A stretch of 64,000 nucleotides of DNA from Archangium sp. (GTDB lineage: Bacteria > Myxococcota > Myxococcia > Myxococcales > Myxococcaceae), in assembly GCA_030695565.1 (NCBI GenBank), contig JAUYRZ010000047.1:62001-126000 (forward strand). Reading direction: 5' to 3'. The notes below the pieces were generated by a model, which saw nothing but the letters and a program-made list of their open reading frames with translations, was not told the DNA's origin and made no database searches. The position numbers were made by a program, and so were the translations under genes. Positions 5,308-27,205 of this stretch are shown in pieces. Positions within the stretch are counted from its first letter, which is position 1; every line of letters begins with the position of its first letter.

Positions 5308-5471
5308 CTCGAGAACTCCTGCTCAGACACCGCGGGGCGGGGAAGCCAGCCGCTTTCCCCAAAGAGACCGGGGTTATGGCACGAAATGGCCCAAACCGTA
5401 CCTCGGGAGGTGACGCTTGAGCGTGACGGGGCGCACCCGGGCCGACATCCGCGGGCTAGAGAGCGAGGCCG

Positions 5472-6473
5472 ATGCGAATCTGCGTGACGTACCCGCTCCA
5501 GGCGGGCCAACGGTTGGTGCTGCGCACCGCGCTCGACTGGGACCGCGATGTCGCTCCTCAGAAGAGCACCGATACCGAGGCGTTCTTCGACCTCGAGGTG
5601 CCCGGCCACACGCTGGAATTGAAGCCTTGTCTGATCGCCGACGGCCAGCTGACCTGGGCCCGGGGCCCGAACTACGTGCTGACGGCCCACGAGGCCGACC
5701 GCGGGTTGTGGCCGTACTTCTTCGGGGAAGCGCGCGGCAAGGTGTCCGACGTGTTGCAGGTCGACTTCGAAGGCCAGCAGCGCGCCATTCGCATCTACCA
5801 CCCGCCCGGGTACGACGAGAACACGCTGCGCCGGTTCCCCGTGCTGTACATGCAAGACGGCCAGAACCTGTTCTTTCCGGAAGAAGCGTTTCGGGGAAAC
5901 GAGTGGCACGTCGACGAGACGATGGATCGGCTGGATCAGATGAACGCGCTGCGAAAGGCGATCGTGGTGGGCGTCTCGCCGGCCGATCGCATGCGCGACT
6001 ACACCCGGGCAGGCTACGGGGCCTACGGGCGGTTCCTGGTGAACCGGCTCAAGCCGCTGGTCGATCACCACCTGCGCACCCGCATCTCGCCGGAAGACTC
6101 GGTGGTGATGGGCTCGTCGTTGGGGGGCGTGGCCGCGCTGCACGTGGCCTGGGAGCACCCCGAGGTGTTCGGGCGCGTGGCCTGCCTGTCGAGCACCTTC
6201 GGCCGGATGGACGATTTGTTCGAGCGCATCGCCTCACAACCGCGGCGCAAGCTGCTGGTCTACCTGGACAGCGGCTGGCCTCGCGACAACTACGACGCCA
6301 CCAACGCGATGCGCGACCTGCTGATCAGCCGCGGCTTTCGCCTGGGCGTGGATCTGCTGCAGTTCAGCTTCCCCGAAGGGCTGCACGACGAGAGCTCGTG
6401 GGCCGACCGCATTCACGTGCCGTTTCAGTTCTTCTTCGGGCGGGCCTGGCGCGCGCAGCGGGGCGAGAGCTGA
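5472..6473 (+). CDS. alpha/beta-hydrolase esterase (enterochelin-esterase-like)
   Basis: Protein of 333 residues without a signal peptide. Residues about 1-90 form a beta-rich N-terminal domain. Residues about 95-320 are an esterase-D/enterochelin-esterase-like alpha/beta hydrolase: [14 protein letters not shown] near the oxyanion region, the nucleophile elbow GSSLGG, and a late histidine in [10 protein letters not shown]. The family hydrolyses carboxyl esters, including siderophore esters; the substrate here cannot be told. The stop overlaps the start of the FKBP lipoprotein gene (TGATG), so both are likely one transcript. No siderophore genes are visible nearby, so a specific enterochelin role is not supported. 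Confidence 0.8.
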
Positions 6474-6877
6474 TGCGCTGGTGCCTGCTGTTGATCATCG
6501 CGGGCTGTAAGACGGCGGCGCCCACGCCTGATGAAGACGTGGTGGAGCAGTACTCCGATGAGCTGCAGGTCGAAGAGCTCTCGGTGGGCAGCGGGGAGAC
6601 CGCGGTATCGGGCTCGAACGTCATCGTGCACTACCGGGGCACGCTCACCTCGGGCGCGGTCTTCGATTCGTCGTTGACCCGCGAGCCGCTGCGGTTCCGC
6701 CTGGGCTCGCGCCGGGTGATCAAGGGGTGGGATCAAGGGCTGCTGGGCATGAAGGTCGGCGGGAAACGCCGGCTGACCATTCCGCCGCGGCTGGGCTACG
6801 GCAACAAGACCGTGGGCGCGATCCCACCCGGCTCATGGTTGATCTTCGACGTCGAGTTGTTGGCGATCGACCGGTGA
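6473..6877 (+). CDS. FKBP-type peptidyl-prolyl isomerase, lipoprotein
   Basis: Protein of 134 residues. The first 12 residues ([12 protein letters not shown]) are a compact lipoprotein signal with the lipid-attachment cysteine at 12. After a short acidic linker, residues about 35-134 are one FKBP domain with the characteristic [18 protein letters not shown], the [17 protein letters not shown] loop and a final [21 protein letters not shown]. These cover the usual prolyl-isomerase pocket (Tyr, Phe-Asp, Trp, Phe). It probably assists folding of periplasmic or surface proteins at the membrane. Start chosen at the ATG overlapping the esterase stop, because it directly gives the lipoprotein signal. 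Confidence 0.9.
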
Positions 6878-6879
6878 CC

Positions 6880-7377
6880 TCAGCCCGCGGGTGAGACGGA
6901 GACGGACGGGAAGAGCGGATCGGCACCGTCTTTCACCACCGTGTCGATCAGCCGAACGAGATCCTCGTAGCGCACGCTGTCTTCCGTGGAGAGCGTGATG
7001 GCGGCCTGATCAGGCTGCTGCGCCTTGAGGTCCTTGAGCTTGAGCACGAGCTTGTCGGTGTCGATGCGGCCGTGTTCGTCACGCGTGATGGGCAGCGCGT
7101 CGAGCTGGGAACCACCGACGGTGAGCTTGAGCTCCTTGTCGGTGATCAGCAGCGTGATGGGCATCACCGCCGACTCGGTGAGCGCTTCCCCCTGGCTGAG
7201 GCCCGATTGCGAGACCTGCAGCCTGCCCAGCTGAGTCCACACGGCGGTCATGATCAGAAACACGATGGTGACCGCCATCAAGTCGATGAACGGTACGAGG
7301 TTGATCATCGCGTCGAGCGCCTTCTTGCCGCCCCTGGAGCTGCCACCCAAATCCATTCCACCAGCCATGCGGCCCAA
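6880..7377 (-). CDS. ExbD/TolR-type biopolymer transport protein
   Basis: Protein of 165 residues with a basic N-terminus, one transmembrane helix (about 25-46, INLVPFIDLMAVTIVFLI) and a C-terminal periplasmic domain. The Pro-Phe-Ile-Asp in the helix carries the aspartate that ExbD/TolR/AglS proteins use for proton-motive-force coupling. The late VSLRP-like pattern of classical ExbD is weak here, but LITDKELKLTVGG and the alternating charged helix/strand pattern fit the family. No ExbB/TolQ partner lies beside it, so the stator protein must be encoded elsewhere. ATGs at 7377, 7365 and 7353 are alternative starts. Confidence 0.82.
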   Translation of the reverse strand: MGRMAGGMDLGGSSRGGKKALDAMINLVPFIDLMAVTIVFLIMTAVWTQLGRLQVSQSGLSQGEALTESAVMPITLLITDKELKLTVGGSQLDALPITRDEHGRIDTDKLVLKLKDLKAQQPDQAAITLSTEDSVRYEDLVRLIDTVVKDGADPLFPSVSVSPAG

Positions 7378-7420
7378 GACAGCGCGCGAGAAAAAGGGTT
7401 TCGGCGATTAAGACAGCCGC

Positions 7421-8077
7421 ATGGCTGACAACGACTCGCGCTCGGGGCTCGTCTACTTCACGCAGGCCTTGCTCGATTGGACCACGCAGGTGCACGCGCC
7501 CCATGATGCGGCGTTGCAGCAGGCGTTCGATGCGCCCGCGAAACACGGCATGCCGGCGATTCAGCTCGCCCCGTCTGAGGCGCGCCTGACCGAGCTGCTG
7601 CTGCGCCTGGCGGGGGCGCGCAAGGTGGTCGAGGTGGGCACGCTCGCGGGCTACTCGGCGTTGCGGCTCGCGCGCGCGCTTCCCGCCGATGGTGAGGTGC
7701 ACACCATCGAGTTCGATCCGAAACACGCTGAGGTCGCGCGTCGGGTCATCGCGACGGCGGGCGAGAGCAAGCGCATCACCGTGCATGTCGGCCCAGGCGT
7801 CGACGTGTTGCCCACGCTCGAGGCGAAGGGCCCGTTCTGCGGGATCTTCATCGACGCCGACAAGGAGAGCTACGACCAGTACGGGCGCTGGGCTGCGAAA
7901 CACCTGAGGCCGGGCGGGTTGTTGATGGGCGACAACGTGTTCCTGTTCAACCAGCTGCTCGAAGATTCACCTCGCGCGGCGGCGATGCGGCGGTTTCACG
8001 AAGAGGCGAAGGCGCACTTCGACACGGTGTGCATTCCCACGCCAGATGGGTTGTTGCTGGGCATCAAGCGGCGTTGA
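7421..8077 (+). CDS. SAM-dependent O-methyltransferase (caffeoyl-CoA OMT-like)
   Basis: Protein of 218 residues, the usual size of the Methyltransf_3 family. It shows the SAM motif VVEVGTLAGYSAL, the acidic residue in VHTIEFDPKH, the metal/acceptor motif IFIDADKESYDQY and the LRPGGLLMGDNVF strand that includes the conserved Asp-Asn. These define cation-dependent small-molecule O-methyltransferases of the caffeoyl-CoA/catechol type. The acceptor is not predictable. The gene is divergent from the ExbD-like gene with a 43-base gap and ends before a 265-base gene-free stretch (8078-8342), in which I see no coding or repeat signal. Confidence 0.88.
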   Translation: MADNDSRSGLVYFTQALLDWTTQVHAPHDAALQQAFDAPAKHGMPAIQLAPSEARLTELLLRLAGARKVVEVGTLAGYSALRLARALPADGEVHTIEFDPKHAEVARRVIATAGESKRITVHVGPGVDVLPTLEAKGPFCGIFIDADKESYDQYGRWAAKHLRPGGLLMGDNVFLFNQLLEDSPRAAAMRRFHEEAKAHFDTVCIPTPDGLLLGIKRR

Positions 8078-8342
8078 CCTGCGCGGTCATTGAGGTGACC
8101 CACAGCCTCGAGAGTGCGTGGTGGGTGCGGATCAGGGGCGTTGCTCGTCTCGCGCAGGCACCGCGGTGCCGTACACGGCGGTGTTGACCGGCCTCACCTC
8201 GCTCACCACCTATTACAGCCCTGTACGCCTGTGACCTGGGTCGAAGCCACGCTCAGCGTGCGTAAGAAAGTTCGCGCTGAGGGGCCTGTTCGCGACGGCC
8301 ACGACCAAGACCAGAAAGCACCACCATCCCCAGGCTGCGCGT

Positions 8343-8726
8343 TCAATCTTCCCGGCGGCCGAACAACCAGACGAGCGAGCTGAACCCCACCCAGCGCAAC
8401 AACCGCCCGTGCTGCGGTGCGTTCGCCGCCCGCAGCTGCGACATCGGGTACAGCTGAAAGATGTTCCGCAGCCGCTGAGCCGCGAAGTCATCCATGCCGC
8501 TCACCAACAACCGCGCGCCCCGCTCTTCTTTGCGCGCCGTCACGTTGCAGCGCGCGATGCGCATCTGCGTGAGCGCCTCTGCCAGGTCGCCCTTCAGCAT
8601 CGCGGGAATGCGGCCGCGCACCAGCCGCAGCTCACCGTTGCGCCACGAGAGCGAGAACAGCTCAGCGCTGCGCTGCAGCCAGAAGAACAGCCCCAGGGCG
8701 ACCACCACGACGAGCGCGACTTCCAC
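8343..8726 (-). CDS. DUF3634-like small membrane protein
   Basis: Protein of 127 residues. One N-terminal transmembrane helix (about 2-18, VALVVVVALGLFFWLQ) is followed by a compact domain containing FSLSWRNGELRLVRGRIP and LLVSGMDDFAAQRLRNIF. The repeated beta strands and RGRIP sequence match my recollection of DUF3634 proteins, for which no function is known. The C-terminus has a second weakly hydrophobic stretch (WVGFSSLVWLFG). It lies on the same strand as the two flavodoxin-like genes, separated by 18 bases, so co-transcription is likely. Confidence 0.65.
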   Translation of the reverse strand: MEVALVVVVALGLFFWLQRSAELFSLSWRNGELRLVRGRIPAMLKGDLAEALTQMRIARCNVTARKEERGARLLVSGMDDFAAQRLRNIFQLYPMSQLRAANAPQHGRLLRWVGFSSLVWLFGRRED

Positions 8727-8744
8727 GCACGGCCTGACACCGCA

Positions 8745-9509
8745 TCATCGCGCCACGTGCAAGTCTTGCGAGCCGCGCTGTGCAGCGAGGCGGTGTCGCG
8801 ACTTCCACAAGAACACCGCGCCGCAGACCGTGCTCACGCCCACCACGAAGTAGACGAGCTGCAGCCAGCTCAGCGTACGCATCATCACCAACTGCATCAC
8901 GCTCCACCCGGTGAGCGTGGCGCCTGCCACCGAGGCCACCAGCTCGCTCTTCGGAAAACGCCGGGCCTCCAACGCCGCCGCCGCGAGGTTACCCACCCCC
9001 ACCACGCCGAAGAGAATCAGCCCGGGGATGAGGTAGCCCAGGTCGCGGGTCGCCAGCAGCAACGAGACCCCGCCGGCCACCGCGGTCACGCCGGTGAAGA
9101 GGCACAGCCACAACACCAGCCGATGCACCCACCGGGTGGGATCGACGGGCGCCGGGCCCGCCACCACCTGCAGGGGAATCGGCGTGGTGGGCGTGGGCCA
9201 CTCGGGCTTTTCCACCGGCAACACCTCGACGCGTTGAGGCGCCGTCTCGATCAACCGCATGATCAACGGAGGCTGCGCTTGAAAGAGATCCTCCACGCTG
9301 CGCTTGATGAAGCGCTGGCCGTTGCGATGCCAGAACCACGCCCAGGGCGTGCCTCCGACCACCACCACGTCCCAGCGATCGAGCGCGTCGACCTTGTTGG
9401 CCGCCAGCACGTCGACGGCGTGACCGTGCTCGACCAGGCCCTGCGCCACCGCGCGCGCGAGCGCCTCGTTGCCGCCCTTCTTCGTACCGTACGCGACGAG
9501 AACCCGCAT
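8745..9509 (-). CDS. degenerate flavodoxin domain fused to a membrane domain (paralog A)
   Basis: Protein of 254 residues starting at the ATG that gives MRVLVAYGTKKGG, the classic flavodoxin phosphate-binding loop. VDVLAANKVDAL and WDVVVVGGTPWAWFW continue the flavodoxin fold, but the later FMN-site strand (FSSGPL in the neighbouring paralog) is replaced by an unrelated proline-rich segment. The second half (about 130-245) carries four hydrophobic segments: LVLWLCLFTGVTAVAGG, YLIPGLILFGVVGVGN, a third around LVASVAGATLTG and a last around LVYFVVGVSTVCGA. It is paralogous to the next gene along the whole length. FMN binding is doubtful. Confidence 0.75.
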   Translation of the reverse strand: MRVLVAYGTKKGGNEALARAVAQGLVEHGHAVDVLAANKVDALDRWDVVVVGGTPWAWFWHRNGQRFIKRSVEDLFQAQPPLIMRLIETAPQRVEVLPVEKPEWPTPTTPIPLQVVAGPAPVDPTRWVHRLVLWLCLFTGVTAVAGGVSLLLATRDLGYLIPGLILFGVVGVGNLAAAALEARRFPKSELVASVAGATLTGWSVMQLVMMRTLSWLQLVYFVVGVSTVCGAVFLWKSRHRLAAQRGSQDLHVAR

Positions 9510-9608
9510 GCGCCCCACCCCCGCAGGCACTCCGTGCAAAGCGGGAGCCCGGGGTGAGTCCGAGGCAAGGCCGTGATCGCCGCGCGCGCACGGCGCAGAG
9601 CATGCGCT

Positions 9609-10532
9609 TCAGCTGCGCGGGATCAGCCGATGGGGCGCGAGGCGATGGCGAACGAGCCACAACCACAGGGCCGCACCCAACGTCACGGTGCCGATGAGGA
9701 AGTACACCAGCTGCAACCAGCTCACGGTTCTGATCATCACCAACTGCGTGACGATCCACGTGGTGAGCGCGGCGCCCGCGACGAGCACGGCCACTTCACT
9801 GCCCCGAATGCGCCGGGCCTCGAGCGCGGCGGCGGCGAGGTTGCCCAGGCCGATGACCAGGAAGAGCAACAACCCGGGGATGAGGTAGCTGTCGAACGGC
9901 GAGTGCTCGAGCAGCTCCGCGGGCGGCCCCTGAAGGCGGGGCGGCGAGGTGATCAACGCGAGCCCGCCGCCCACCGCGGTGATGCCGGTGAAGAGACACA
10001 GCCCCAATACGAGGCGGTGCACCGCCGACATGGCCTGCGGTACGTGCGCGCGTTCACGCACGGGCATCGTGGCGAGCTGGGCTCCGACCGCCCGACCCCA
10101 CGCGCGGGTGGCGTCCAGATCTCGCCAGTCGCCCGTGGGGAGCGCGGTCTTCCCACCCGGCACGAGCCGGCCGCCGAAGGTCTTGTGCGCCTGGGCACCC
10201 GCGAGGCGCGCGAGGTGCGCGACCGAGGGAGGCGGCGGCAATTCGCGCTCGCTGGCGGAGTCGTCGAGGGGCCCGCTGGAGAAGAACCAGACCGGGAGCT
10301 GCTGCAGCTCATCGAGGTGCCGTTTGACGAACCGTCGTGCGTCGCGTTGCCAGAACCACACGTCAAGGGCGCCGCCCACCACCACGGCTTCCCACTTCAC
10401 CAGGGAGTCGAGGGGCTTTCTGGCGGGCAACACGTCGACGGTGTGACCCGCGTCGACCAGACCCTGCCCGACCGCCGCAGCCAACCCCTCCGTACCACCG
10501 CGCTTCGTTCCGTAAACGACGAGGACCCGCAT
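9609..10532 (-). CDS. flavodoxin domain fused to a four-helix membrane domain (paralog B)
   Basis: Protein of 307 residues. The N-terminal 165 residues form a flavodoxin/HemG-like domain: phosphate loop VVYGTKRGG, EAVVVGGALDVWFW, the FMN-contact strand VWFFSSGPL and the closing GGRLVPGG. The C-terminal part has four predicted helices (VLGLCLFTGITAVGGG, YLIPGLLLFLVIGLGN, VAVLVAGAALTTWIV, LVYFLIGTVTLGAAL). HemG-type flavodoxins oxidise protoporphyrinogen, but no such role can be shown here. The start was placed at MRVLVVYG because the upstream part of the open frame overlaps the phosphofructokinase gene. A 99-base gap separates it from paralog A. Confidence 0.78.
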   Translation of the reverse strand: MRVLVVYGTKRGGTEGLAAAVGQGLVDAGHTVDVLPARKPLDSLVKWEAVVVGGALDVWFWQRDARRFVKRHLDELQQLPVWFFSSGPLDDSASERELPPPPSVAHLARLAGAQAHKTFGGRLVPGGKTALPTGDWRDLDATRAWGRAVGAQLATMPVRERAHVPQAMSAVHRLVLGLCLFTGITAVGGGLALITSPPRLQGPPAELLEHSPFDSYLIPGLLLFLVIGLGNLAAAALEARRIRGSEVAVLVAGAALTTWIVTQLVMIRTVSWLQLVYFLIGTVTLGAALWLWLVRHRLAPHRLIPRS

Positions 10533-10676
10533 GCCGCGCCTCCGGCCGTCACAAGATGCAAGTGCAACGCCCACCCGACCCCACTGAAACGAGCAGGGCA
10601 GACCGGGGGGCCTCACGCAGAGCCTGCACGCAAGGAAACGTGCCTTCCCGCCTGTTGGGACGTACACCTCAGGCTC

Positions 10677-11783
10677 ATGAGTTCGATTAAGCGCATTGCC
10701 ATCAGCACCGGAGGCGGAGACGCCCCTGGTTTGAACGCCGTCATCCGCGCCGCCACGCTCGCCGCCGTCAACCGGGGCTGGGAGATCTACGGCATCCGCG
10801 AAGGCTTCAACGGCATCTTCTTCCCTGAACGATTTGCCGATGGGGGCCTGTTCCAGCTGACGCGCGATCGGGTGCGCGGCATCGCTCACCTGGGCGGCAC
10901 GATCCTCGGCACGACCAACAAGGGCAACCCGATGAAGTACCCGCTCAAGATGCCCGACGGGTCCGTTCGCGAGGTCGATCGCACCGATGAAATCCTCGAG
11001 TTCTTCGCGCGAAAGCAGATCGACGCGTTGATCAGCATCGGCGGCGACGGCTCGTTGACCATCGCGCACGCGCTCTCCTTGAAGGGTCTGAAGGTGGTCG
11101 GCGTACCGAAGACCATCGACAACGATCTCGACAAGACGTTCACCACCTTCGGCTTCGACACCGCGGTCGCCTTCGCCACCGAGTGTCTCGATCGCCTGCA
11201 CACCACCGCCGAGAGCCACCAGCGCATCTTCGTGGTCGAGATGATGGGCCGCTACGCGGGGTGGATCGCCCTGCACTCGGGCATCTCGGGCGGCGCGCAC
11301 GCGATTCTGCTCCCTGAGATTCCGTTCGACCTGGACAAGGTGGTCGAGAAGATCCGCCTGCGCGACAACGTGGGCCGGGTGTACTCGCTGGTGGTGGTGG
11401 CCGAAGGCGCCAACGCGGTGCACACGCAGCGCTCGGTGCTGGAGAAGGCGCAGGCGGGCCAGGCCGAGCGGCTCGGCGGCATCGGTGAAAAGGTGGCGCG
11501 CGTGCTCGCCGAACGCACCGGCAAGGAGACCCGCACCGTGGTGCTCGGTCACCTCGTGCGCGGCGGCTCACCCACCTCGTTCGATCGCCTCGCGGCGATG
11601 CGCTTCGGTGCCGCGGCGGTGCGTGCGCTCGATGAGGGCTACACCAACGTGATGGTCTCGCTGGCGTTCCCCAACGTGCAGTACGTGCCGCTGGAAGAGG
11701 TCGCCGGCCGCATGAAGGCGGTGCCGCTCGACAGCGACACGTTGCTCACCGGGCGCGACATCGGCATCTGCTTCGGCGACTAG
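10677..11783 (+). CDS. pfkA: 6-phosphofructokinase
   Basis: Protein of 368 residues. It shows the N-terminal nucleotide loop STGGGDAPGLN, the second ATP-site motif GGDGS, the catalytic loop PKTIDNDLD with the proton-abstracting aspartate, and the fructose-6-phosphate site motif EMMGRYAGWIA. It phosphorylates fructose-6-phosphate in glycolysis. The residue that separates ATP from pyrophosphate enzymes is Gly in GGDGS (ATP type), while the catalytic loop has Lys (PKTID) as in pyrophosphate and mixed-clade enzymes. ATP-dependence is therefore favoured. The ATG at 10677 follows a 144-base region divergent from the flavodoxin-like gene. Confidence 0.93.
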   Translation: MSSIKRIAISTGGGDAPGLNAVIRAATLAAVNRGWEIYGIREGFNGIFFPERFADGGLFQLTRDRVRGIAHLGGTILGTTNKGNPMKYPLKMPDGSVREVDRTDEILEFFARKQIDALISIGGDGSLTIAHALSLKGLKVVGVPKTIDNDLDKTFTTFGFDTAVAFATECLDRLHTTAESHQRIFVVEMMGRYAGWIALHSGISGGAHAILLPEIPFDLDKVVEKIRLRDNVGRVYSLVVVAEGANAVHTQRSVLEKAQAGQAERLGGIGEKVARVLAERTGKETRTVVLGHLVRGGSPTSFDRLAAMRFGAAAVRALDEGYTNVMVSLAFPNVQYVPLEEVAGRMKAVPLDSDTLLTGRDIGICFGD

Positions 11784-11787
11784 CTTG

Positions 11788-11820
11788 GCTCCCTCGCCCT
11801 GCTTCGCAGGGAGAAGGAGC
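11788..11820. terminator. palindromic hairpin between convergent genes
   Basis: Inverted repeat with an outer arm (GCTCC/GGAGC at 11788-11792 and 11816-11820) and an inner six-base stem CCCTGC/GCAGGG around a TTC loop (11797-11811). It lies between the convergent stops of pfkA and the TolC gene, so it can act as a bidirectional terminator. It belongs to the CTCCC-rich palindromes repeated elsewhere in the window. Confidence 0.6.
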
Positions 11821-13212
11821 TCAGGGCGCAGCGAGCGCCGCGCGCAGGGCCGCGTTGGCCTTGTGATGTTCGGTGAGCGAGTCGATCTCCCGAAGCCGCG
11901 CTTCGGCGGTGGCCTGCTCGCGCAGGTTCACGAACAGCAGCGTCGAATCACCCAGCTCGAAGCGGGTGCGTTCGCCCTGCTCGAGCCGAATGGAGACCGC
12001 CACCTCCTGGCGCGTGAAGGTGATGCGCTCGCTGGCCGCCGACAGCGCCGAGAGCGCATCGCGCACGTCGACCACCACCCGATCGCGCGCGAGCTGTGCC
12101 TGGGCCTCGAGCCTGCTCAGGCCGGCGCGCGCTGACTGCACCCGGCCCAGCGGCGCGCGATACAGCAGCGGCACCTCGAGCACCGCGTTGAACTCGAGCT
12201 CTGGCTTGGCCAGGGGCTCCAGCTGGGGCTGCGGGGTGTTGCCGAAGTCCTGCGTGAAGGCGACGCCCACGTCGAGCAACGGCAGCACCTGGTTCTGCTG
12301 ATAGCGCAGCTCGATCTCCTGCTGCTTCTTCTGCGTGAGCAGCCGCTGCAGCTCGGGCCGCCGAACCAACGCCGCCTCGAGGTCGGGCGGCTCACGCGTG
12401 CTCAAGTCAGGTTGGGGAAAAACGGGGGGAAGCCGCGCATCGCCCGGCATCACCGGGTTTCCCTGCGCGTCTCGCAAGAAGAGCGACAGCTCGAACGAGC
12501 TCTGCTCCAACGCGCGCTGGGCCTGCACCAGCAAGGCCTGCCGCTGGGCCAACGCCCGCTGGTTGTCTTCTCGATCGAAGACGGGCACGTCGCCCTCCTT
12601 CGCCCGAGCCGCGAGCTGGGCGTCGCGATCTTTCGCGGTCTGCAGCAGCGCGCGCGCGATCTCCCGTCGATGCCCCGCGGCCACCCAGTCCCAGTAGCGG
12701 AACGCGGCCAGCCGGGTCACCTCGAGGCGTTGCTGGTCGAGCGAGAGCCCCGCCAGCTGCTGGCTCAGCTCGGCCCGCGCCAGGTTCGCCCGGCGGCGAT
12801 CGATGGGCCCGTTGCGAAGCACCGGCACGTTGACGCCCGCGCGCACCTCACCGCCCGAGAGCGTCTCGCGCTCGCGGTAGTAGTCGGGGATCTTCCCCAG
12901 CCCCAGGCGGTAGCCCGCGAAGAAGTTCGCGCCCCACAAGGGCGTGGGCACCTCGATGACGCTGTCGAGGCGCGTGTGCGGGTAGCCGCTGACGGGCGAA
13001 GTCCACGCGCGGGTGCGCCACACCGGGTCGAACGCACCGGCCGCCGTGAGCTGTTCACCCGAAGCGCCCTCCACGTCGGCCCGCGCCGCCACGAGAGAAG
13101 GAAAGGCCTGCTCGGCCACCGTGAGCACCTCGCCCAACTGCAGCGGGCGCTCCGGGAGCACCGGCGCATCGCCCACGGCCAACACCAACGTCATCAAGGC
13201 AGGGCTGATCAT
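11821..13212 (-). CDS. TolC-family outer-membrane efflux protein
   Basis: Protein of 463 residues; the ATG at 13212 overlaps the stop of the HlyD gene as ATGA and directly gives a signal sequence (MISPALMTLVLAVGDA). Long alpha-helical, Ala/Glu/Gln-rich repeats such as LSTREPPDLEAALVRRPEL and YRAPLGRVQSARAGLSRLEAQA are typical of the two-fold TolC repeat, which forms the trimeric outer-membrane/periplasmic tunnel. Last gene of the four-gene exporter operon that begins at 16917. Together with HlyD and the ABC protein it completes a type I secretion-like set. Confidence 0.88.
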   Translation of the reverse strand: MISPALMTLVLAVGDAPVLPERPLQLGEVLTVAEQAFPSLVAARADVEGASGEQLTAAGAFDPVWRTRAWTSPVSGYPHTRLDSVIEVPTPLWGANFFAGYRLGLGKIPDYYRERETLSGGEVRAGVNVPVLRNGPIDRRRANLARAELSQQLAGLSLDQQRLEVTRLAAFRYWDWVAAGHRREIARALLQTAKDRDAQLAARAKEGDVPVFDREDNQRALAQRQALLVQAQRALEQSSFELSLFLRDAQGNPVMPGDARLPPVFPQPDLSTREPPDLEAALVRRPELQRLLTQKKQQEIELRYQQNQVLPLLDVGVAFTQDFGNTPQPQLEPLAKPELEFNAVLEVPLLYRAPLGRVQSARAGLSRLEAQAQLARDRVVVDVRDALSALSAASERITFTRQEVAVSIRLEQGERTRFELGDSTLLFVNLREQATAEARLREIDSLTEHHKANAALRAALAAP

Positions 13213-14552
13213 TTCTTCGCGTCCTTCCCGGGGGTGCCGGGCTCCTTCATGGCCACCGTCGGAGGAAAGCCGTTGAAGAGCCGCCACAGCTCGTAGCCCA
13301 GCTTCACCTGCTCGAGCAGCACCCAGCCCTTCACCCTGACGCCCTGGCGCAGGTACAGCCGCGCGGGCCAGGCCTCATCGCCATCGGGCCTGACCAGAAT
13401 GCGAAAACGGCCGGTGCCATCGTCGGTCGAATCGATGAGGGCCACCTCAGCGCCGAAGGTGCCGACCGCCACGGAAGGCCAGCCGGTGAACTGCACCGCG
13501 GGCCAACCCTCGAACTGAAGACGAACGGGGCGCCCATCGGACAACAGGGGCATGTCGTTGCCGTCGACCCACAGCTCGACGGCGCGTTCATTCGTGTCGG
13601 GCACGATGGTGAGCAGGGGCTCTCCCGCTTTCACGAACGAGTTGCCCTGGCCCGCCTTGACCCGGAGCACGGTGCCTTCGATGGGCGCCCTGACCTCCAT
13701 GGTGCTCTGCCGGGCCAGCCGCACTTCGAGGCGGGCCAGCTCACCGGCGGCGTTGGCCTCTTCCGCGAGCGCGGTGGCCTCGGAAGCGCGCGCGTCGTCG
13801 AGGGCCGCGGTGAGGTCGTGCTCGACGCGCTGACGGTCGTCCTCCAGCGCGCTCGCTTCGCCCATCGCGGCCTGCAGTGCGGCCTGCGCCCGCTCGACGT
13901 CGGTGGCGGTCCGCACGCCCTCGAGCTGGGCGAGCTCGAGGGTGCGCTGCGAAGCGAGCCCCTGCTCGACCAGCCTGCCTTGCCGCTCGAGGTTCAGCTT
14001 CGCCGCGAGCTGGGCGGCCTGCGACCCTTCGAGCGCCTGGCGGGCCGCCTTGACGCGCTCCTGCGCCATGGTGACCCGGTTCGCCGCGCCCCGAATGCCC
14101 GCCAACCGGCTCGACTCGAGCGAGCGCTGCCGCGCCACGATGGAGTTGACGCGCGCGATGGTGGCCGTGCGGCGGGCGAGCACCGCGTCTCGCTCTTCAC
14201 CCAGCCGCGTGAGGATGGAGGGATCGTTGTCGGTGAGCTCGAGCAGCAGTTCGCCCGGCTTCACCCGAGAGCCTTCGCGCACGTTCCACTTCGTCACCCG
14301 GCCTTCGATGGGCGCGTCGATCTCCTGTTGCCGCTCGAGCGGCGAGAAGGCGACCACCCGCCCGGTGCCGCTGACGCTCTGCTGCCAGGGGATGAGCGCC
14401 AGGCCGAAGACGATCAGCACCACGGTGATGGCCAGCAGGCGGCCCAGGGTGCGTAACGCGCGCGGCGTGCGCACCAGCAGCTCGGCCGCACGAACGCCGG
14501 GTTGACCGGCGATGAGCGGGGCGGCTTCGGTCTGTGTCGACGGGGCGCTCAT
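13209..14552 (-). CDS. HlyD-family membrane-fusion (adaptor) protein
   Basis: Protein of 447 residues starting at the ATG that overlaps the ABC gene stop (ATGA). One transmembrane helix at about 38-55 (LLAITVVLIVFGLALIPW) is followed by a lipoyl-like half motif (IDAPIEGRVTKWNVREGSRVKPGE), a long coiled-coil hairpin (about 110-290, Arg/Glu/Ala-rich) and the second half motif VRAPIEGTVLRVKAGQGNSFVKAGE. A beta-barrel domain ends the protein. It would bridge the inner-membrane ABC protein and the TolC-type channel. Its own sequence shows no decay, in contrast to the partner ATPase. Confidence 0.9.
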   Translation of the reverse strand: MSAPSTQTEAAPLIAGQPGVRAAELLVRTPRALRTLGRLLAITVVLIVFGLALIPWQQSVSGTGRVVAFSPLERQQEIDAPIEGRVTKWNVREGSRVKPGELLLELTDNDPSILTRLGEERDAVLARRTATIARVNSIVARQRSLESSRLAGIRGAANRVTMAQERVKAARQALEGSQAAQLAAKLNLERQGRLVEQGLASQRTLELAQLEGVRTATDVERAQAALQAAMGEASALEDDRQRVEHDLTAALDDARASEATALAEEANAAGELARLEVRLARQSTMEVRAPIEGTVLRVKAGQGNSFVKAGEPLLTIVPDTNERAVELWVDGNDMPLLSDGRPVRLQFEGWPAVQFTGWPSVAVGTFGAEVALIDSTDDGTGRFRILVRPDGDEAWPARLYLRQGVRVKGWVLLEQVKLGYELWRLFNGFPPTVAMKEPGTPGKDAKK

Positions 14553-21408: not shown

Positions 21409-21424
21409 TGGCACGCACGATGCT
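21409..21424 (+). promoter_or_regulatory. sigma-54 promoter of the signalling operon
   Basis: The bases TGGCACG-CACG-ATGCT match the sigma-54 consensus TGGCACG-N4-TTGCW at every fixed position except one (A for the first T of the -12 box), with the invariant GG and GC at correct spacing. It lies 63 bases upstream of the first gene of the five-gene operon; transcription would start near 21435. Sigma-54 promoters need an enhancer-binding activator, common for developmental genes in myxobacteria. Confidence 0.75.
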
Positions 21425-21486
21425 TCGTGCGCTGCCGACCCCCCGTCACGATCACGTGAGACCCACCACCCCTGGGAGCGCTTCAA

Positions 21487-21981
21487 ATGGAACCTGTTCT
21501 GCATCTGGCCGTGCGACCGCAGTGGGACGAGGTCGACGCGGCGCGCAATCAGGCCGTGTCCTTTCTCCGCGGGCACGGGTTCGGCGAGGCGACCATTCAG
21601 GCCACCGAGATGGTGATGTGTGAGCTGACCGAGAACGCCACCAAGTACGGCGATTTTCAGGAGAAGACGGCGCGGCCGGTGACCATCGCCATCACCGTGC
21701 AGGGCGCCACGGTGACGGTGGAGGTGCGCAGCCCGGTGGCCACGCCCCACGACGAACACCTGCGCCGGCTCGATCGCGCGGTGCAGTGGATCCGCGGCTT
21801 CCAGAACCCGTTCGAGGCCTACGTGGAGCGCCTCAAAGAGGTGTCGGCCCAGTCGCTGGAGAGCGGCGAGAGCGGCCTGGGCCTGGTGCGCATCGCCTAC
21901 GAGGGCCAGTCGATCCTCGACTTCTTCATGCCCGAGCAGAACGTCCTCTCCGTGTCGGCAGTGCACCGCAGTCAGGCCTGA
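21487..21981 (+). CDS. anti-sigma-type histidine-kinase-like ATPase
   Basis: Protein of 164 residues without membrane segments. It has the GHKL ATPase N-box (about 45-57, MCELTENATKYGD) and a late glycine-rich lid (SGLGLVRIAYEG). The G1 acidic box of full histidine kinases is reduced, as in SpoIIAB/RsbW-type serine kinases. Such proteins phosphorylate STAS partners and bind sigma factors or other targets. The next gene, nine bases downstream, encodes a STAS-like protein, so a partner-switch is the natural reading. NCBI uses 'slr1658 superfamily' for similar proteins, as far as I recall. Confidence 0.75.
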   Translation: MEPVLHLAVRPQWDEVDAARNQAVSFLRGHGFGEATIQATEMVMCELTENATKYGDFQEKTARPVTIAITVQGATVTVEVRSPVATPHDEHLRRLDRAVQWIRGFQNPFEAYVERLKEVSAQSLESGESGLGLVRIAYEGQSILDFFMPEQNVLSVSAVHRSQA

Positions 21982-21990
21982 GGTCTCCCC

Positions 21991-22359
21991 ATGCCCTTCC
22001 AGACATTTCAACAACACACCCTCACGCTCGAGCTGCACGACGAAGGCGAGGCCATCTCGTTGGTCTGGTCGGGCCGCAGCTCCAGCCGCGAGCCAGGCGT
22101 GTTCATCGTGCCGGTGCTCTCGCGCGCGCTGGAGCTGGGCCGCTCGCAGAACAAACCGCTGCTGCTCGACTTTCAGAGCATGGCGTACATGAACTCGTCG
22201 ACCATCACCCCGATCATCCGCCTGCTGGGCAAGGCGATGCGCACCGCGAACAAGGTGTGCGTCATCTACAAGAAGGAGCTCAAGTGGCAGGAGCTCAGCT
22301 TCACCGCGCTCGAGGTGTTCCAGACGCCTGATCAGCGCATCGAGATCCGCGGGGTGTGA
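21991..22359 (+). CDS. STAS-like regulator (anti-anti-sigma type)
   Basis: Protein of 122 residues. A central strand LLLDFQSMAYMNSSTITPIIRLLGKAM has the STAS pattern: strand, then Asn-Ser-Ser at about 68-70 at the start of the first helix, where SpoIIAA/RsbV carry the phosphorylated serine. The second strand VCVIYKKE and helix LSFTALEVF continue the fold. It is predicted to be the phosphorylation substrate of the upstream ATPase and to be dephosphorylated by the PP2C protein encoded at 23778. It may belong to the 'slr1659 superfamily'. The next gene starts three bases after its stop. Confidence 0.7.
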   Translation: MPFQTFQQHTLTLELHDEGEAISLVWSGRSSSREPGVFIVPVLSRALELGRSQNKPLLLDFQSMAYMNSSTITPIIRLLGKAMRTANKVCVIYKKELKWQELSFTALEVFQTPDQRIEIRGV

Positions 22360-22362
22360 AGC

Positions 22363-23781
22363 ATGAGCGCGCTCGAACGAAGTGAAGTGCGAGGCAGCGC
22401 CGAAGCGGTGAACGCCGCCTTGATGCTCAAGGTCGAGCAGGCCCGGCCCCACTCGTTGCTGGTGAGCTTCGACCAGCGGGAACAACTGCCCCTTCACGGC
22501 GCAGTGTTCGATCGTCTCACCCTGCAGTGTGCAGGCAGGCGCGCCACCCTGGGGCCCTGCCGCTACGAGTCGGGCACCGCCATCGCCGAGTCGAGTGAAC
22601 CCGCGCCGCCTTCGAGCGATGGGCGCCTGGTGTTTCTGGAGCACGTCTACGACTTCACCCAGCTCTTCGCGCACGGCCGCATCACCGAGCTGAGCCAGCG
22701 CGTGCGCCAGTTGCCGCTGGTGTGGGGCCGCAAGAGCTCGATCCAGCCGGCGTTTCGCGACTTCACCTCTCAGCTGCTCTACGACTTCCAGGTCTACCGG
22801 GGCCTGTTCGACGGGCTCGATCGCAGCCTGGAAAACGAGCCACCCGAAGTGCGCACCTCGGTGCACGAGGTGGCCATCGGCGCGGAGTATGAAAACTTCA
22901 GCGCGTTCTTCGACACCCAACTCGAGCACCTGGAGAGCGCGGTTCGACACTTCACCCGCCAGGATCACGAGCGCCACGGCTTCTATTTCCGCAAGCAGCT
23001 GTGGGACATCATCCACGCCTCCGAGTTCCTCGCGCGCACCAACTTGAAGCCGCGGGGGTACTCGGGGGACTCGGTGATGATGCGCATGATCTACCAGCGC
23101 GAGTTCCGCGGCCGCTCGTTGTTCTCGAAGTTCATGAACCGCCACCCGCTCGACACCGTCGCCGCCGAGGCCGTGCGTCACCGGCGCCAGCTGGTGGCCG
23201 ACACGGTGCGCGCCGCTCAAGAACGCTGCGCCCAACGTGACGCGCGCACCCGGGTGCTCTCGGTGGCCTGCGGCCCCGCGTGGGAGCTGCGCGACCTGAT
23301 CAAGGCGCCCCGCGATCTCGAACAACTCGAGCTGGTGTTGCTCGATCAAGACCCGCTCGCGCTCGACGACGCACGCGACACCGTCATGGAGCTGGAGCAA
23401 CGGTTCCGCACGAGGCTCGATGCGCGGCTGATCAAAGACTCGGTGCGCACCATGATCGGCGCCACCGATCTCGCCTCGCGCTGGGGCCAGTTCGACGTGG
23501 TCTACGCCATGGGGCTGTTCGACTACCTCACCCCGCCCGTCGCCAAGGCGGTCTTGGGCAGGCTCTACGAGCTGCTCGCCCCCGGCGGCGTGTTGACCAT
23601 CGGCAACTTCCACGCCCGCAACCCGAGCCGCGTCTACATGGAGTACTGGATGGATTGGGTCATCTACTACCGCGACGAAGCCGAGTTCCTCGAGCTGGCC
23701 GGCGAGCTGACCTCTGCCGAGGTGAGCCTCACGTACGAAGCCACCCGGAATCAGATGTTCCTCCAGGTGCGCAAGCCATGA
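22363..23781 (+). CDS. SAM methyltransferase, possibly PhcB-like (fatty-acid methyl ester signal synthase)
   Basis: Protein of 472 residues. The first 110 residues form a beta-rich PilZ-like or unassigned domain. A helical region follows, with KPRGYSGDSVMMRMIYQ (about 230) and FRGRSLFSKFMNRHPLDTVAAEAVRHR. The Rossmann SAM domain begins at VLSVACGPAWEL (about 297), with the acidic LVLLDQDPLAL, VVYAMGLFDYL and LLAPGGVLTIGNF. The RGYxGDxxMMxMIY segment recalls proteins annotated as PhcB, which make 3-hydroxypalmitate methyl ester, the quorum signal of Ralstonia. That link rests on memory of the motif only. Its stop overlaps the phosphatase start (ATGA). Confidence 0.72.
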   Translation: MSALERSEVRGSAEAVNAALMLKVEQARPHSLLVSFDQREQLPLHGAVFDRLTLQCAGRRATLGPCRYESGTAIAESSEPAPPSSDGRLVFLEHVYDFTQLFAHGRITELSQRVRQLPLVWGRKSSIQPAFRDFTSQLLYDFQVYRGLFDGLDRSLENEPPEVRTSVHEVAIGAEYENFSAFFDTQLEHLESAVRHFTRQDHERHGFYFRKQLWDIIHASEFLARTNLKPRGYSGDSVMMRMIYQREFRGRSLFSKFMNRHPLDTVAAEAVRHRRQLVADTVRAAQERCAQRDARTRVLSVACGPAWELRDLIKAPRDLEQLELVLLDQDPLALDDARDTVMELEQRFRTRLDARLIKDSVRTMIGATDLASRWGQFDVVYAMGLFDYLTPPVAKAVLGRLYELLAPGGVLTIGNFHARNPSRVYMEYWMDWVIYYRDEAEFLELAGELTSAEVSLTYEATRNQMFLQVRKP

Positions 23782-25157
23782 CCACCGGGGAGTTCGAGAT
23801 CGTGCAGGAGAGCCAGCCCAGGAGCGCCGGCTTCGAGGCGTACGTGCAGTCGCTCATTCACCTGCACGCCCGAACGCTCACCGCGCTGGGCTTCACGCTC
23901 ATTCCGCTCTTCTTCATTCTCGACTTCTTCATGATGCCGCCCGGGCTGCTCGAGCGCTTCGCGGTGTACCGCCTGGTGGCCACCGCGCTGGTGCTGGGTC
24001 AACACCTGCTGGTGCGCCACACCCGCCCGCGCGGCTTTTCCCAGTGGCACGGCTACGTCTTCACGTCGATCACCGGGGGCATGATCGCCCTGATGACCAC
24101 CGACCTGCACGGCTTCGACTCGACCTACTACGCGGGCCTGAACCTGGTGATGATCGCCACCAACACGCTGCTGCCGTGGCGGGCGATTCACTCGGCGATC
24201 AACTGCCTCATCACCATCGGCCTCTACTTCGGGCTCAACCTCCTTTTTCCAGCCGAGGGCGAGCCGGCCACCGGGGCGTTGCTCAACAACGCCTACTTCC
24301 TGGTCTCCACCGCGGTCATCTCGGTGGTGGCCACCAGCGCGCGGGAACGCCTGGTGCGCGAAGAGTTCAGGGCCCGCTCGCAGCTGAAAGAGGCGCGCGA
24401 CGTCTTGTGGGGCGACATGGAGGTCGCCAAGCGCATTCAGACCTCGCTCCTTCCGCGGGTGCGCCAGCTGCCCGGCTACCACGTGGCGGCCACCATGTTG
24501 CCCGCCGCAGAAGTGGGCGGCGACTACTACGACGTGATCGAGACCGACGAAGGCGAGCTGTGGGTGTCGATCGGTGACGTGTCGGGCCACGGGGTGGAGT
24601 CGGGGTTGATCATGATGATGACCCAGACCAGCGTCTTCACCGCCGTCAGCAACGAACGCGCCCTGCAACCCTCGCGCATGCTGGAGATGGTCAACGGCGT
24701 GGTGACCGAGAACATCGCCCGGCTGGGAGCAGATCACTACGTGTCCATCTCCGCGGTCTCGTTGCGCGGCAGCGAGCTCGTCTTCTCGGGCAAACACCAG
24801 GACATCCTGGTCTACCGCCGCGCCAGCGACCTGGTGGAGGTGGTGCCCACCACCGGCACCTGGCTGGGCGTGCTGGGTGACCTGCGCGGCAGGCTGCGTG
24901 ACGAGAGCCTGCACGTGGAAGAAGGCGACGTGGTGCTGCTCTTCACCGACGGCGTCACCGAAGCGACGAACGCGGCCGGCCAGATGTACGGCGAGAAGCA
25001 GCTGGAGCGCGCGCTGCACGACAACGCCTGTCTCGACGTGGAGACCATCGTGCGCAACATCTCGCGCGAGGTGCAGGGCCACATGGCGCACCTCGACGAC
25101 GACCTCACCTTGATCGCCTTGAAGCGGGTGACGCCCGTGCTGGCCGTGCGCGCATGA
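23778..25157 (+). CDS. membrane-anchored SpoIIE-type PP2C phosphatase
   Basis: Protein of 459 residues starting at the ATG that overlaps the methyltransferase stop. About 30-200 hold six predicted membrane helices (LIPLFFILDFFMM, LVATALVLGQHLLV, LINCLITIGLYFGLNLLF and others; 5TM/7TM-like sensor). A short helix with VAKRIQTSLLP leads into the PP2C domain: VGGDYYDVIE (about 247) and VSIGDVSGHG carry metal-binding aspartates, with VVLLFTDGVTEA (about 390) and DDDLTLIAL (about 440). The family dephosphorylates STAS proteins, matching the gene two places upstream. The stop overlaps the hybrid kinase start. Confidence 0.88.
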   Translation: MTTGEFEIVQESQPRSAGFEAYVQSLIHLHARTLTALGFTLIPLFFILDFFMMPPGLLERFAVYRLVATALVLGQHLLVRHTRPRGFSQWHGYVFTSITGGMIALMTTDLHGFDSTYYAGLNLVMIATNTLLPWRAIHSAINCLITIGLYFGLNLLFPAEGEPATGALLNNAYFLVSTAVISVVATSARERLVREEFRARSQLKEARDVLWGDMEVAKRIQTSLLPRVRQLPGYHVAATMLPAAEVGGDYYDVIETDEGELWVSIGDVSGHGVESGLIMMMTQTSVFTAVSNERALQPSRMLEMVNGVVTENIARLGADHYVSISAVSLRGSELVFSGKHQDILVYRRASDLVEVVPTTGTWLGVLGDLRGRLRDESLHVEEGDVVLLFTDGVTEATNAAGQMYGEKQLERALHDNACLDVETIVRNISREVQGHMAHLDDDLTLIALKRVTPVLAVRA

Positions 25158-27205
25158 AGCCCGGCGGCGACATGCCGGCCGCCGAGCTGCTGAGCATGCT
25201 CGACAGCATCGTCGACGGCGTGGCGGTGCTGAGCTTGAAGCAGCGCTACGTGTACCTGAACCCGGCGGCCATCACGCTGCTGGGGCCGCTCCATCTCGAG
25301 GGCGCGCCGCCCGTCTCGTATCTCCAACCAGACGAGCAGACCCGCGTCGAGCCGAGTTCGATGCCGCTGGTTCGTGGGCTCTCGGGCGAAGAGACCGCAC
25401 CGTTTCGGGTCTTCGTGAAGAACCCCAGCACGGCCCAGGGCCGGCACCTGAGCCTGAGTGGCGGGCCGTGGTTCAACTCGAAGGGGGAGATCCTCGGCGC
25501 GGTCGAGGTCTTGAGCGACGTCACCAGCTGCAAGCAGGTGGAAGACGAAGCCAGGCGCGCGCTCGACTTTCTCGACAACATCATCGAGCACGTGCCCGCG
25601 ATGATCTTCGTCAAGGACGCCCGCGAGCTGCGTTTCGAACGTTTCAACCGGGCGGGTGAAGAGCTGTTGGGCCTGCCGCGCGAAGCGTTGATGGGCAAGA
25701 ACGACTACGACTTCTTCCCGCGAGCGCAGGCAGACTCGTTCATCAAGCGCGACCGTGAGGCCCTGGCCGGGCGAGCCATGGTGGAGATTCCCGAGGAGCC
25801 CATCGACCTGAAGGCGGGCCGGCGCTGGTTGTCGACGCGCAAGGTGCCGGTGCTCGACAGCAAGGGCAACCCCGAGTTTCTCCTGGGCATCTCGGTGGAC
25901 ATCACCGCGCGCAAAGCAGCGCAGCTGGAGCTGGAGACCGCGCACGCGCTCCTCGAGCAGCGGGTGGCCGAACGCACCGCCCAGCTGCAGCGCGCCAACG
26001 CAGAGCTGCAAAAAGAGATCGCCGAACGAAAACGGGCAGAAGAAGCGCTGCTGCTGAGCCAGGAGCAGTTGCAGCAGTCTCAGAAGCTCGAGGCAGTGGG
26101 CCGGCTGGCCGGGGGCATCGCGCACGACTTCAACAACATGCTCTCGGCGATGCTGGGGTACGCGGGGCTGGTCGCGCTCTCGTTACCGCCCGACGCCGAG
26201 GCGCAACAAGACGTGAAACAGATCGTGCTCGCCGGAGAACGCGCCGCCGCGTTGATCCGCCAGCTGCTCGCGTTCAGCCGCAAGCAGGTGCTCCAGCCCA
26301 CGGTGCTCGACGTGGGCCTCGTGGTCTCGGGCATGACGGAGATGTTGCGCCGGCTGCTGGGTGAACGGGTCGAGCTGCAGGTGGAGGTCGAGCCGGGCAC
26401 CTGCTGCGTGATGGCCGACGCGACGCAGATGGAGCAGGTGCTGCTCAACCTCTCCATCAACGCCCGCGACGCGATGCCCAACGGCGGTCACCTGAAGATC
26501 GCCATCGGGCCCGTCTCCTTACCCGACGAGAGGCTGCCCCCCGTGCCGCTCAAGCCGGGGGACTACGTGCGGCTGACCGTCAGCGACGACGGCGTGGGCA
26601 TGAACGAGGAGACCAAGCAGCGCGTCTTCGAGCCGTTCTTCACCACCAAGCCGCGCGGCCAGGGCACCGGGCTCGGTGCGGCCACCGTGTTCGGGGTGGT
26701 CACGCAGAGCGGCGGCGACGTGCGGGTGAAGAGCGAGGTGGGCCGCGGCACCACCTTCGAGATCTACCTGCCCAGGGTCGAAGGCCGCGTCGACGAGCCG
26801 CCCGCCTTGTCAGAGGTGCTGCGCGCGCAGAAGCGCACCGCCACCGTGCTGCTGGTGGAAGACGAACCGATGGTGCGCGCGGCGACCGCGCGCATTCTCA
26901 CCTCGGCCGGGATCAAGGTGCTCGAGGCCAACACGCCCGACGGGGCCCTCTCGATCGCCTCGGAGAGCATGGACACCATCGACCTGTTGCTGACCGACGT
27001 GGTGTTGCCCACCATGAACGGCCGCGAGCTGGCCGACAACATCCTGCTCCTGCGCCCGCGAATGCGCGTGTTGTTCATGAGCGGCTACGCCGAGGAGGCG
27101 GTCTTGCGTGATCAGCTGGTCGCCACGGGCGCTGCGTTTCTGCCCAAGCCCTTCAGCCCCGACACGCTGGTGCGGCGCATCGATGAGGTGCTGAACGCGA
27201 GCTGA
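25154..27205 (+). CDS. PAS-containing hybrid histidine kinase
   Basis: Protein of 683 residues, cytoplasmic. PAS domains occupy about 5-125 and 130-260 (VAVLSLKQRYVYLNPAAITLLG; MIFVKDARELRFERFN), then a coiled coil (LLEQRVAERTAQLQRANAEL). The HisKA helix has the phosphorylated histidine at about 323 (GGIAHDFNNML), followed by a GHKL ATPase (LLNLSINARDAMP, VSDDGVGM, GTGLGAATVFG). A receiver domain at the end has its phospho-aspartate near 615 (LLLTDVVLP). Final gene of the operon, overlapping the phosphatase by four bases. It lacks a DNA-binding output, so the signal must be passed to another protein. Confidence 0.92.
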   Translation: MKPGGDMPAAELLSMLDSIVDGVAVLSLKQRYVYLNPAAITLLGPLHLEGAPPVSYLQPDEQTRVEPSSMPLVRGLSGEETAPFRVFVKNPSTAQGRHLSLSGGPWFNSKGEILGAVEVLSDVTSCKQVEDEARRALDFLDNIIEHVPAMIFVKDARELRFERFNRAGEELLGLPREALMGKNDYDFFPRAQADSFIKRDREALAGRAMVEIPEEPIDLKAGRRWLSTRKVPVLDSKGNPEFLLGISVDITARKAAQLELETAHALLEQRVAERTAQLQRANAELQKEIAERKRAEEALLLSQEQLQQSQKLEAVGRLAGGIAHDFNNMLSAMLGYAGLVALSLPPDAEAQQDVKQIVLAGERAAALIRQLLAFSRKQVLQPTVLDVGLVVSGMTEMLRRLLGERVELQVEVEPGTCCVMADATQMEQVLLNLSINARDAMPNGGHLKIAIGPVSLPDERLPPVPLKPGDYVRLTVSDDGVGMNEETKQRVFEPFFTTKPRGQGTGLGAATVFGVVTQSGGDVRVKSEVGRGTTFEIYLPRVEGRVDEPPALSEVLRAQKRTATVLLVEDEPMVRAATARILTSAGIKVLEANTPDGALSIASESMDTIDLLLTDVVLPTMNGRELADNILLLRPRMRVLFMSGYAEEAVLRDQLVATGAAFLPKPFSPDTLVRRIDEVLNAS

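Follow-up and report, generated by a model that had tools for sequence, protein, structure and literature searches.

A methyltransferase, a six-helix membrane phosphatase and a partner switch in one operon of Archangium sp.: a possible synthase-receptor pair

The operon and its conserved four genes

The subject of this analysis is an operon in a 64,000-nucleotide stretch of DNA from the soil myxobacterium Archangium sp. (contig JAUYRZ010000047.1, positions 62,001 to 126,000; hereafter the window). Five coding genes on the + strand, at 21487-27205 of the window, encode in order a GHKL ATPase, a STAS-like protein, an S-adenosylmethionine (SAM) methyltransferase (MT), a membrane phosphatase of the PP2C type and a hybrid histidine kinase (Table 1). 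An earlier note, made from the sequence of the window alone, had read these as one tightly coupled signalling unit that contains a complete partner switch, with the kinase as a second phospho-relay. The open reading frames and their translations confirm the coupling: 9 bases separate the ATPase and STAS genes, 3 bases separate STAS from MT, and both the MT-PP2C and the PP2C-kinase junctions are ATGA overlaps.

With hidden Markov models (HMMs) built from the window proteins, ATPase, STAS, MT and PP2C were found to recur jointly in ~20 Myxococcota loci from several families, at MT identities of 41-76% (the G130 locus is counted once, L055 and L103 being the same contig). The relatives are Myxococcaceae, other Myxococcota or Deltaproteobacteria, mostly metagenome-assembled genomes with some short contigs, and the gene calls in these loci are mechanical. 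The order ATPase-STAS-MT-PP2C is found in ~15 loci (type I). Five others (type II; L036, L038, L039, L100 and L101) have ATPase-MT-PP2C with one convergent STAS gene and usually a second STAS divergent from that one. Conservation of gene order, on which the earlier note had staked its proposal, was thus found for genes 1-4, but the five-gene unit was rejected. Only in G004, the closest species and a member of the same genus (L157, 67% identity), does the kinase come after PP2C; in all other relatives examined it is absent from that place. Therefore, it is a genus-level addition, and the idea that it forms a necessary second phospho-relay is not supported.

The window's own genome has a second copy of the unit, of type II (L038; G000:C19:57000-74000, 5546-9767), with one STAS gene convergent and a second divergent from it. 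In an enlarged cluster (L037; G015:C58:40000-56000, 4972-13938) a type I operon lies between histidine kinases, with more STAS and ATPase genes after it, of which one or more have an NSSG motif. L106/L160 (G142:C485) has ATPase-STAS-MT without the six-helix PP2C after the MT, and downstream of the type I operon of L102 inositol monophosphatase and ADP-ribosylglycohydrolase domains are joined in one protein (10946-12817). The sigma-54-like box ahead of the window operon is also present upstream in the nearest relative (L031), with 1 mismatch, and was found upstream in none of the more distant relatives' loci, which places it outside the conserved unit. The box is weak because its pattern is expected ~2 times per window by chance, and a sigma-54 promoter was rejected as a conserved feature, being confined to the two nearest species.

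Table 1. Features of the operon, in window coordinates (aa, amino acids).
Feature	Position	Strand	Evidence
Sigma-54-like promoter box TGGCAC-N5-ATGCT, TGGCACGCACGATGCT	21409..21424	+	1 mismatch; 62 bases upstream of first start codon
GHKL ATPase, 164 aa, presumed STAS kinase/binding partner (SiaB / slr1658 / SpoIIAB-like)	21487..21981	+	Pfam, NCBIfam, motifs, profile vs solved structures
STAS-like switch protein, 122 aa (SiaC / slr1659 / SpoIIAA-like)	21991..22359	+	NCBIfam, weak SiaC match, motif alignment
Ser69 codon, candidate phospho-site	22195..22197	+	Motif MNSST; N68-S69-S70 invariant; aligns by motif with SiaC Thr68
Class I SAM methyltransferase (MT), 472 aa, N-terminal beta domain (aa ~8-91) and helical insert; presumed signal synthase	22363..23781	+	Pfam, predicted structure
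Membrane PP2C (SpoIIE-type) phosphatase, 459 aa	23778..25157	+	Pfam SpoIIE 2.5e-32, motifs, structure model
N-terminal six-helix membrane domain of PP2C, aa 15-205 (~190 residues), signature FxSxYYAGL...LLPW...NNxYFL	23820..24392	+	Homologous to sensor domain of MT-linked histidine kinases
SpoIIE/PP2C catalytic domain, aa 257-450	24546..25127	+	Motifs IGDVSGHG, TDGVTE, DDDLTL
PAS-PAS-HisKA(H324)-HATPase-receiver(D615) hybrid kinase, 683 aa	25154..27205	+	Pfam domains; kept only in nearest relative

Judged by their motifs, ATPase, STAS and PP2C seem to make up a full partner switch and bear the signs of a working one, as had been proposed. The ATPase matches Pfam HATPase_c_2 (3.6e-7). In 14 members of its family the N-box residues E46 and N50 and the LGL box (G2 box) are invariant, and the canonical G1 box, DxGxG, is absent. 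Its best NCBIfam match is slr1658_superfam (2e-9), with a score of 37.1 bits that falls below the cut-off of 100, and against curated DUF6272 it reaches 21.6 bits, below the cut-off of 26.6. The STAS protein likewise has its best NCBIfam match, slr1659_superfam (8e-6), below cut-off (26.1 against 100 bits) and a weak match to the SiaC/STAS-like domain (0.017; 15.2 bits against a SiaC cut-off of 24.5). Among solved structures the ATPase profile is closest to SiaB in the SiaB-SiaC complex (6kko_A, 0.0012). For the STAS profile the hits are TM1442 and a weak one to SiaC (0.019), so that the two family profiles match the two chains of this solved complex. The candidate phospho-serine, Ser69, lies in a motif, N68-S69-S70, that is invariant in all 19 members of the STAS family, together with W99-Q100..F104; its counterpart by motif in SiaC, Thr68, is phosphorylated (PMC7278518). 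A plasmid search with the STAS protein gave no match. In the phosphatase all three metal-binding motifs are intact, and a model of its catalytic part (models were made from 6-7 sequences each) matches SpoIIE, RssB and SiaA in Foldseek.

The MT matches Pfam Methyltransf_12/25/20 (3e-10), and no NCBIfam name is above cut-off for it. Foldseek searches with its model returned generic class I methyltransferases, the best being 3ocj, of unknown function. At its N-terminus (aa 8-91, 22384-22635) several strands are predicted ahead of the helical part; this domain may be PilZ-like, since a distant MT (L172) has a weak N-terminal PilZ match.

The membrane domain of the phosphatase and its pairing with the methyltransferase

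The PP2C HMM matched histidine kinases that stand beside distant MT relatives, at model positions 2-200 only, which is to say over the six-helix (6TM) membrane domain. To guard against circularity, separate models were made from 14 PP2C-type domains only and from 7 kinase-type domains only. The former matched the kinases of L040 (3e-31), Paraburkholderia graminis (1e-15) and Pseudanabaena (3e-5), and the latter matched the window PP2C protein at 1e-25. Profile-profile comparison of the two domain types gave a probability of 99.9 and an E-value of 8e-36, and residues D31, R47, Y100, G102 and L103 are invariant across both. AlphaFold2 places six helices between aa 15 and ~190, the sixth of which continues as a long helix toward the phosphatase domain, with pLDDT mostly 80-92 there. 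No solved structure matched the 6TM domain by sequence, and the Foldseek matches listed are phosphatases, which correspond to the PP2C part. It is through this homology to MT-linked kinase sensors, absent from the earlier note, that the operon gains a possible mechanism.

Gene order shows the same pairing. Among the 42 full-length MTs (E < 1e-110) of 195 Myxococcota genomes, 40 are followed immediately, on their own strand, by the 6TM domain, and of the strong matches to the domain (E < 1e-50) 38/41 come directly after an MT; because the models were built from adjacent pairs, these counts hold for close relatives of the starting pairs. Two of the three exceptions among the domain matches lie at contig ends. 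The third, L156 (G039:C1:637000-650000, 4716-7434), has ATPase-(6TM-PP2C)-STAS without an MT and is a candidate orphan receptor. Outside the phylum, an MT and a 6TM domain occur together in three genomes, and in each of these they adjoin, head to tail in L148 and L149 and convergent in L150, with a hybrid kinase as output. Moreover, ATPase and STAS are present in every PP2C-type locus (20/20) and in no kinase- or GGDEF-type locus (0/15). With every type of output the MT is constantly paired with the membrane domain, and ATPase and STAS are in turn constantly paired with PP2C. In a tree of the MTs, whose deep branches have modest support (92/99 for the PP2C clade including L106), a single change separates the PP2C-type rows from the kinase-type rows, which is consistent with a single exchange of output between kinase and PP2C.

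In Rhizobium johnstonii pRL12 (L080, 2604-5816) an MT relative has a divergent neighbour, a GGDEF-EAL membrane protein with a weakly 6TM-like N-terminal part. As a third output this was kept as a hint only, the HMM match being 1e-6 but the pairwise profile probability 70%.

A kinase locus of this kind in P. graminis encodes an MT (468 aa), a kinase (445 aa) and two receiver proteins (134 aa and 344 aa), a layout that resembles phcB-phcS plus receiver regulators. The histidine of its kinase is at 233 of 445, and that of PhcS is H230 (PMC11960443). Residue 22 of its MT is an arginine; PhcB is altered at this residue in the mutant R22C, and homologs from Ralstonia, Cupriavidus and Paraburkholderia are reported to conserve it (PMC6989110). 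No Ralstonia record came out of searching plasmids with the MT and the kinase of P. graminis.

A proposed synthase-receptor pair and its alternatives

The MT is constantly found with the membrane domain, and ATPase and STAS constantly with PP2C. On the most economical reading, the MT would supply the ligand of the membrane domain, and ATPase and STAS would be the output of the phosphatase. On the whole we give a probability of roughly 60% to the operon being a quorum-sensing-like synthase-receptor pair wired to a partner switch. By analogy with PhcB, which makes the 3-hydroxy fatty acid methyl esters that PhcS senses (PMC11960443), the MT probably makes the signal. This would be a small, methylated, diffusible and membrane-permeant molecule, probably lipid-derived and most likely a methyl ester of fatty-acid type. 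A lipid or fatty-acid substrate also fits a single open reading frame on the - strand of L167 (G383:C92, 7102-8955), in which an N-terminal patatin-like lipase is fused to a C-terminal MT of the window family. The six-helix domain would be the receptor, which on binding the signal would raise or lower the activity of the phosphatase to which it is joined. Phosphatase and ATPase would then set the phosphorylation state of Ser69, and the STAS protein would in turn free or bind a target encoded outside the conserved unit. A sigma factor would fit as this final target, if the ATPase holds one as SpoIIAB and RsbW do. Of the two roles that had been suggested for the MT, signal synthesis is the better and protein methylation is less favoured.

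Several observations weigh against this reading. Among weaker matches to the domain (E 1e-50 to 1e-5), 29/32 do not adjoin an MT and only 3/32 do. Therefore, specificity for MT products is not a property of the 6TM fold itself, and the pairing is limited to this subfamily. There are also MT relatives without a receptor neighbour (L162, L163, L164 and L106/L160, and the short MTs L046 and L048-L050). The window MT is only ~25% identical to that of P. graminis, and the link to PhcBS is one of locus architecture and two residue positions. Lastly, the conserved unit contains no sigma factor or other switch target, and no sigma factor was noticed in the conserved neighbourhoods, a search that was not exhaustive.

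The best of the alternatives is a classical anti-sigma switch, in which the ATPase binds an unlinked sigma factor that is freed when dephosphorylated STAS captures the ATPase, and in which the MT may or may not make a signal. The phosphatase is of SpoIIE type, and matches of SpoIIAB/RsbW and SpoIIAA type are among those to solved structures, but the ATPase without a DxGxG box scores closest to SiaB/slr1658 and the missing sigma factor counts here as well. We hold this alternative to be somewhat unlikely, though it can hold jointly with a synthase-receptor pair as its output step.

A more doubtful alternative takes its model from SiaC and the diguanylate cyclase SiaD: dephosphorylated STAS would bind the MT and switch it on or off, and the phosphatase would respond to an external cue that has nothing to do with the product of the MT. 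The four-gene make-up parallels siaABCD (PMC7278518), STAS lies directly before MT in type I loci, for which such a control is conceivable, and the extra N-terminal domain of the MT could serve as a docking site. However, relatives of the MT stand beside 6TM-kinases in loci of which none (0/15) has STAS or ATPase, and the constant partner of the MT is not STAS. Moreover, L156 keeps ATPase-(6TM-PP2C)-STAS without an MT, and so a partner switch of this kind can do without the MT as target. It is because MT occurs without STAS, and STAS with PP2C occurs without MT, that this proposal was demoted from the leading one.

Less likely again is that the MT modifies a membrane lipid or a protein, for instance as a CheR-like adaptation enzyme for the receptor, and that the operon senses an environmental lipid and not a self-made signal. 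A membrane receptor beside the MT nearly always, and a weak match of the MT to a CheR profile (1.7e-5), would suit such a role, but Pfam matched no CheR N-terminal domain in the MT, and the patatin fusion of L167, which hints at lipid or fatty acid as substrate, and the Phc-like locus architecture also weigh against it. That unrelated signalling genes became neighbours by chance is very improbable, for although Myxococcota genomes are rich in genes of these kinds and the kinase, conserved at genus level only, partly fits, this is refuted for genes 1-4 by their co-occurrence in ~20 loci of several families down to 41-45% MT identity.

It may be, at about even odds, that MT and 6TM domain form a general synthase-receptor cassette for a lipid-type signal in several phyla, with an exchanged output: a histidine kinase in most loci, the PP2C switch in a Myxococcota clade by one swap and perhaps, on weak evidence, GGDEF-EAL in rhizobia. 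If so, the operon would serve signalling between cells, with a protein phosphatase as the receptor, and this phosphatase would act on a STAS switch. A synthase-receptor pair related to that of Phc would then occur widely in Myxococcota and in other phyla, and its two-component output would have given way to a partner switch, a natural case of output exchange on one 6TM receptor domain. Moreover, a partner switch, a type of system whose sensory inputs are often unknown, would here have an input signal that is concrete and can be tested. In the open-access literature we found no paper in which a methyltransferase, a 6TM receptor and a partner switch are brought together, in keeping with the earlier note, which knew of no described system with this exact gene set. 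The parts are of known kinds; as far as we found, their combination, PhcBS-like sensing with Sia/SpoIIA-like partner switching, and the exchange of output are undescribed.

Comparison with known systems

The cyanobacterial slr1658/slr1659 families are the best NCBIfam matches of the window ATPase and STAS, but both proteins lie far below the family cut-offs (37 and 26 against 100 bits). With SpoIIAB-SpoIIAA-SpoIIE and RsbW-RsbV-RsbU the window operon shares the same three kinds of protein and presumably the same phospho-cycle. It differs from these in having no linked sigma factor, in an ATPase without the canonical G1 box and in NSST in place of DSSG, the phospho-site motif of the SpoIIAA/RsbV type.

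SiaABCD of Pseudomonas aeruginosa has PP2C, kinase, STAS-like protein and enzyme (PMC7278518), and the window likewise combines in a single operon a membrane PP2C, a SiaB-like kinase, a SiaC-like switch protein and an enzyme, with a phospho-acceptor Ser/Thr at the equivalent motif. However, an MT stands where SiaABCD has the diguanylate cyclase SiaD, ATPase and STAS score below the curated DUF6272 and SiaC cut-offs, and the membrane part of the phosphatase is unmatched to SiaA, the NCBIfam match covering the C-terminal part only. Given the scores below cut-off and the absence of a cyclase, we do not file the window operon as a member of SiaABCD.

CqsS and LqsS are by description six-helix membrane receptors for lipophilic signals, as is proposed here, and their output domain is exchangeable in chimeras (PMC4821796). 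Their outputs are kinases, a cyclase output having been obtained by engineering only.

The closest parallel to the input half is PhcB-PhcS(-PhcR-PhcQ) of Ralstonia and Cupriavidus, from a gene cluster of restricted distribution in Betaproteobacteria (PMC10653808). In both, a SAM methyltransferase with an extra N-terminal part is followed by a membrane sensor protein, and the sensor domain of the window phosphatase is homologous to that of the P. graminis locus of like architecture, which was compared in place of the R. solanacearum proteins. The output of the window operon is a SpoIIE-type PP2C with ATPase and STAS and not a histidine kinase with receivers, and for this reason we do not file it as a member of PhcBSR. 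Rather, its input half would be the same in kind as PhcB-PhcS, with the kinase and response-regulator output replaced by a switch of PP2C, STAS and ATPase.

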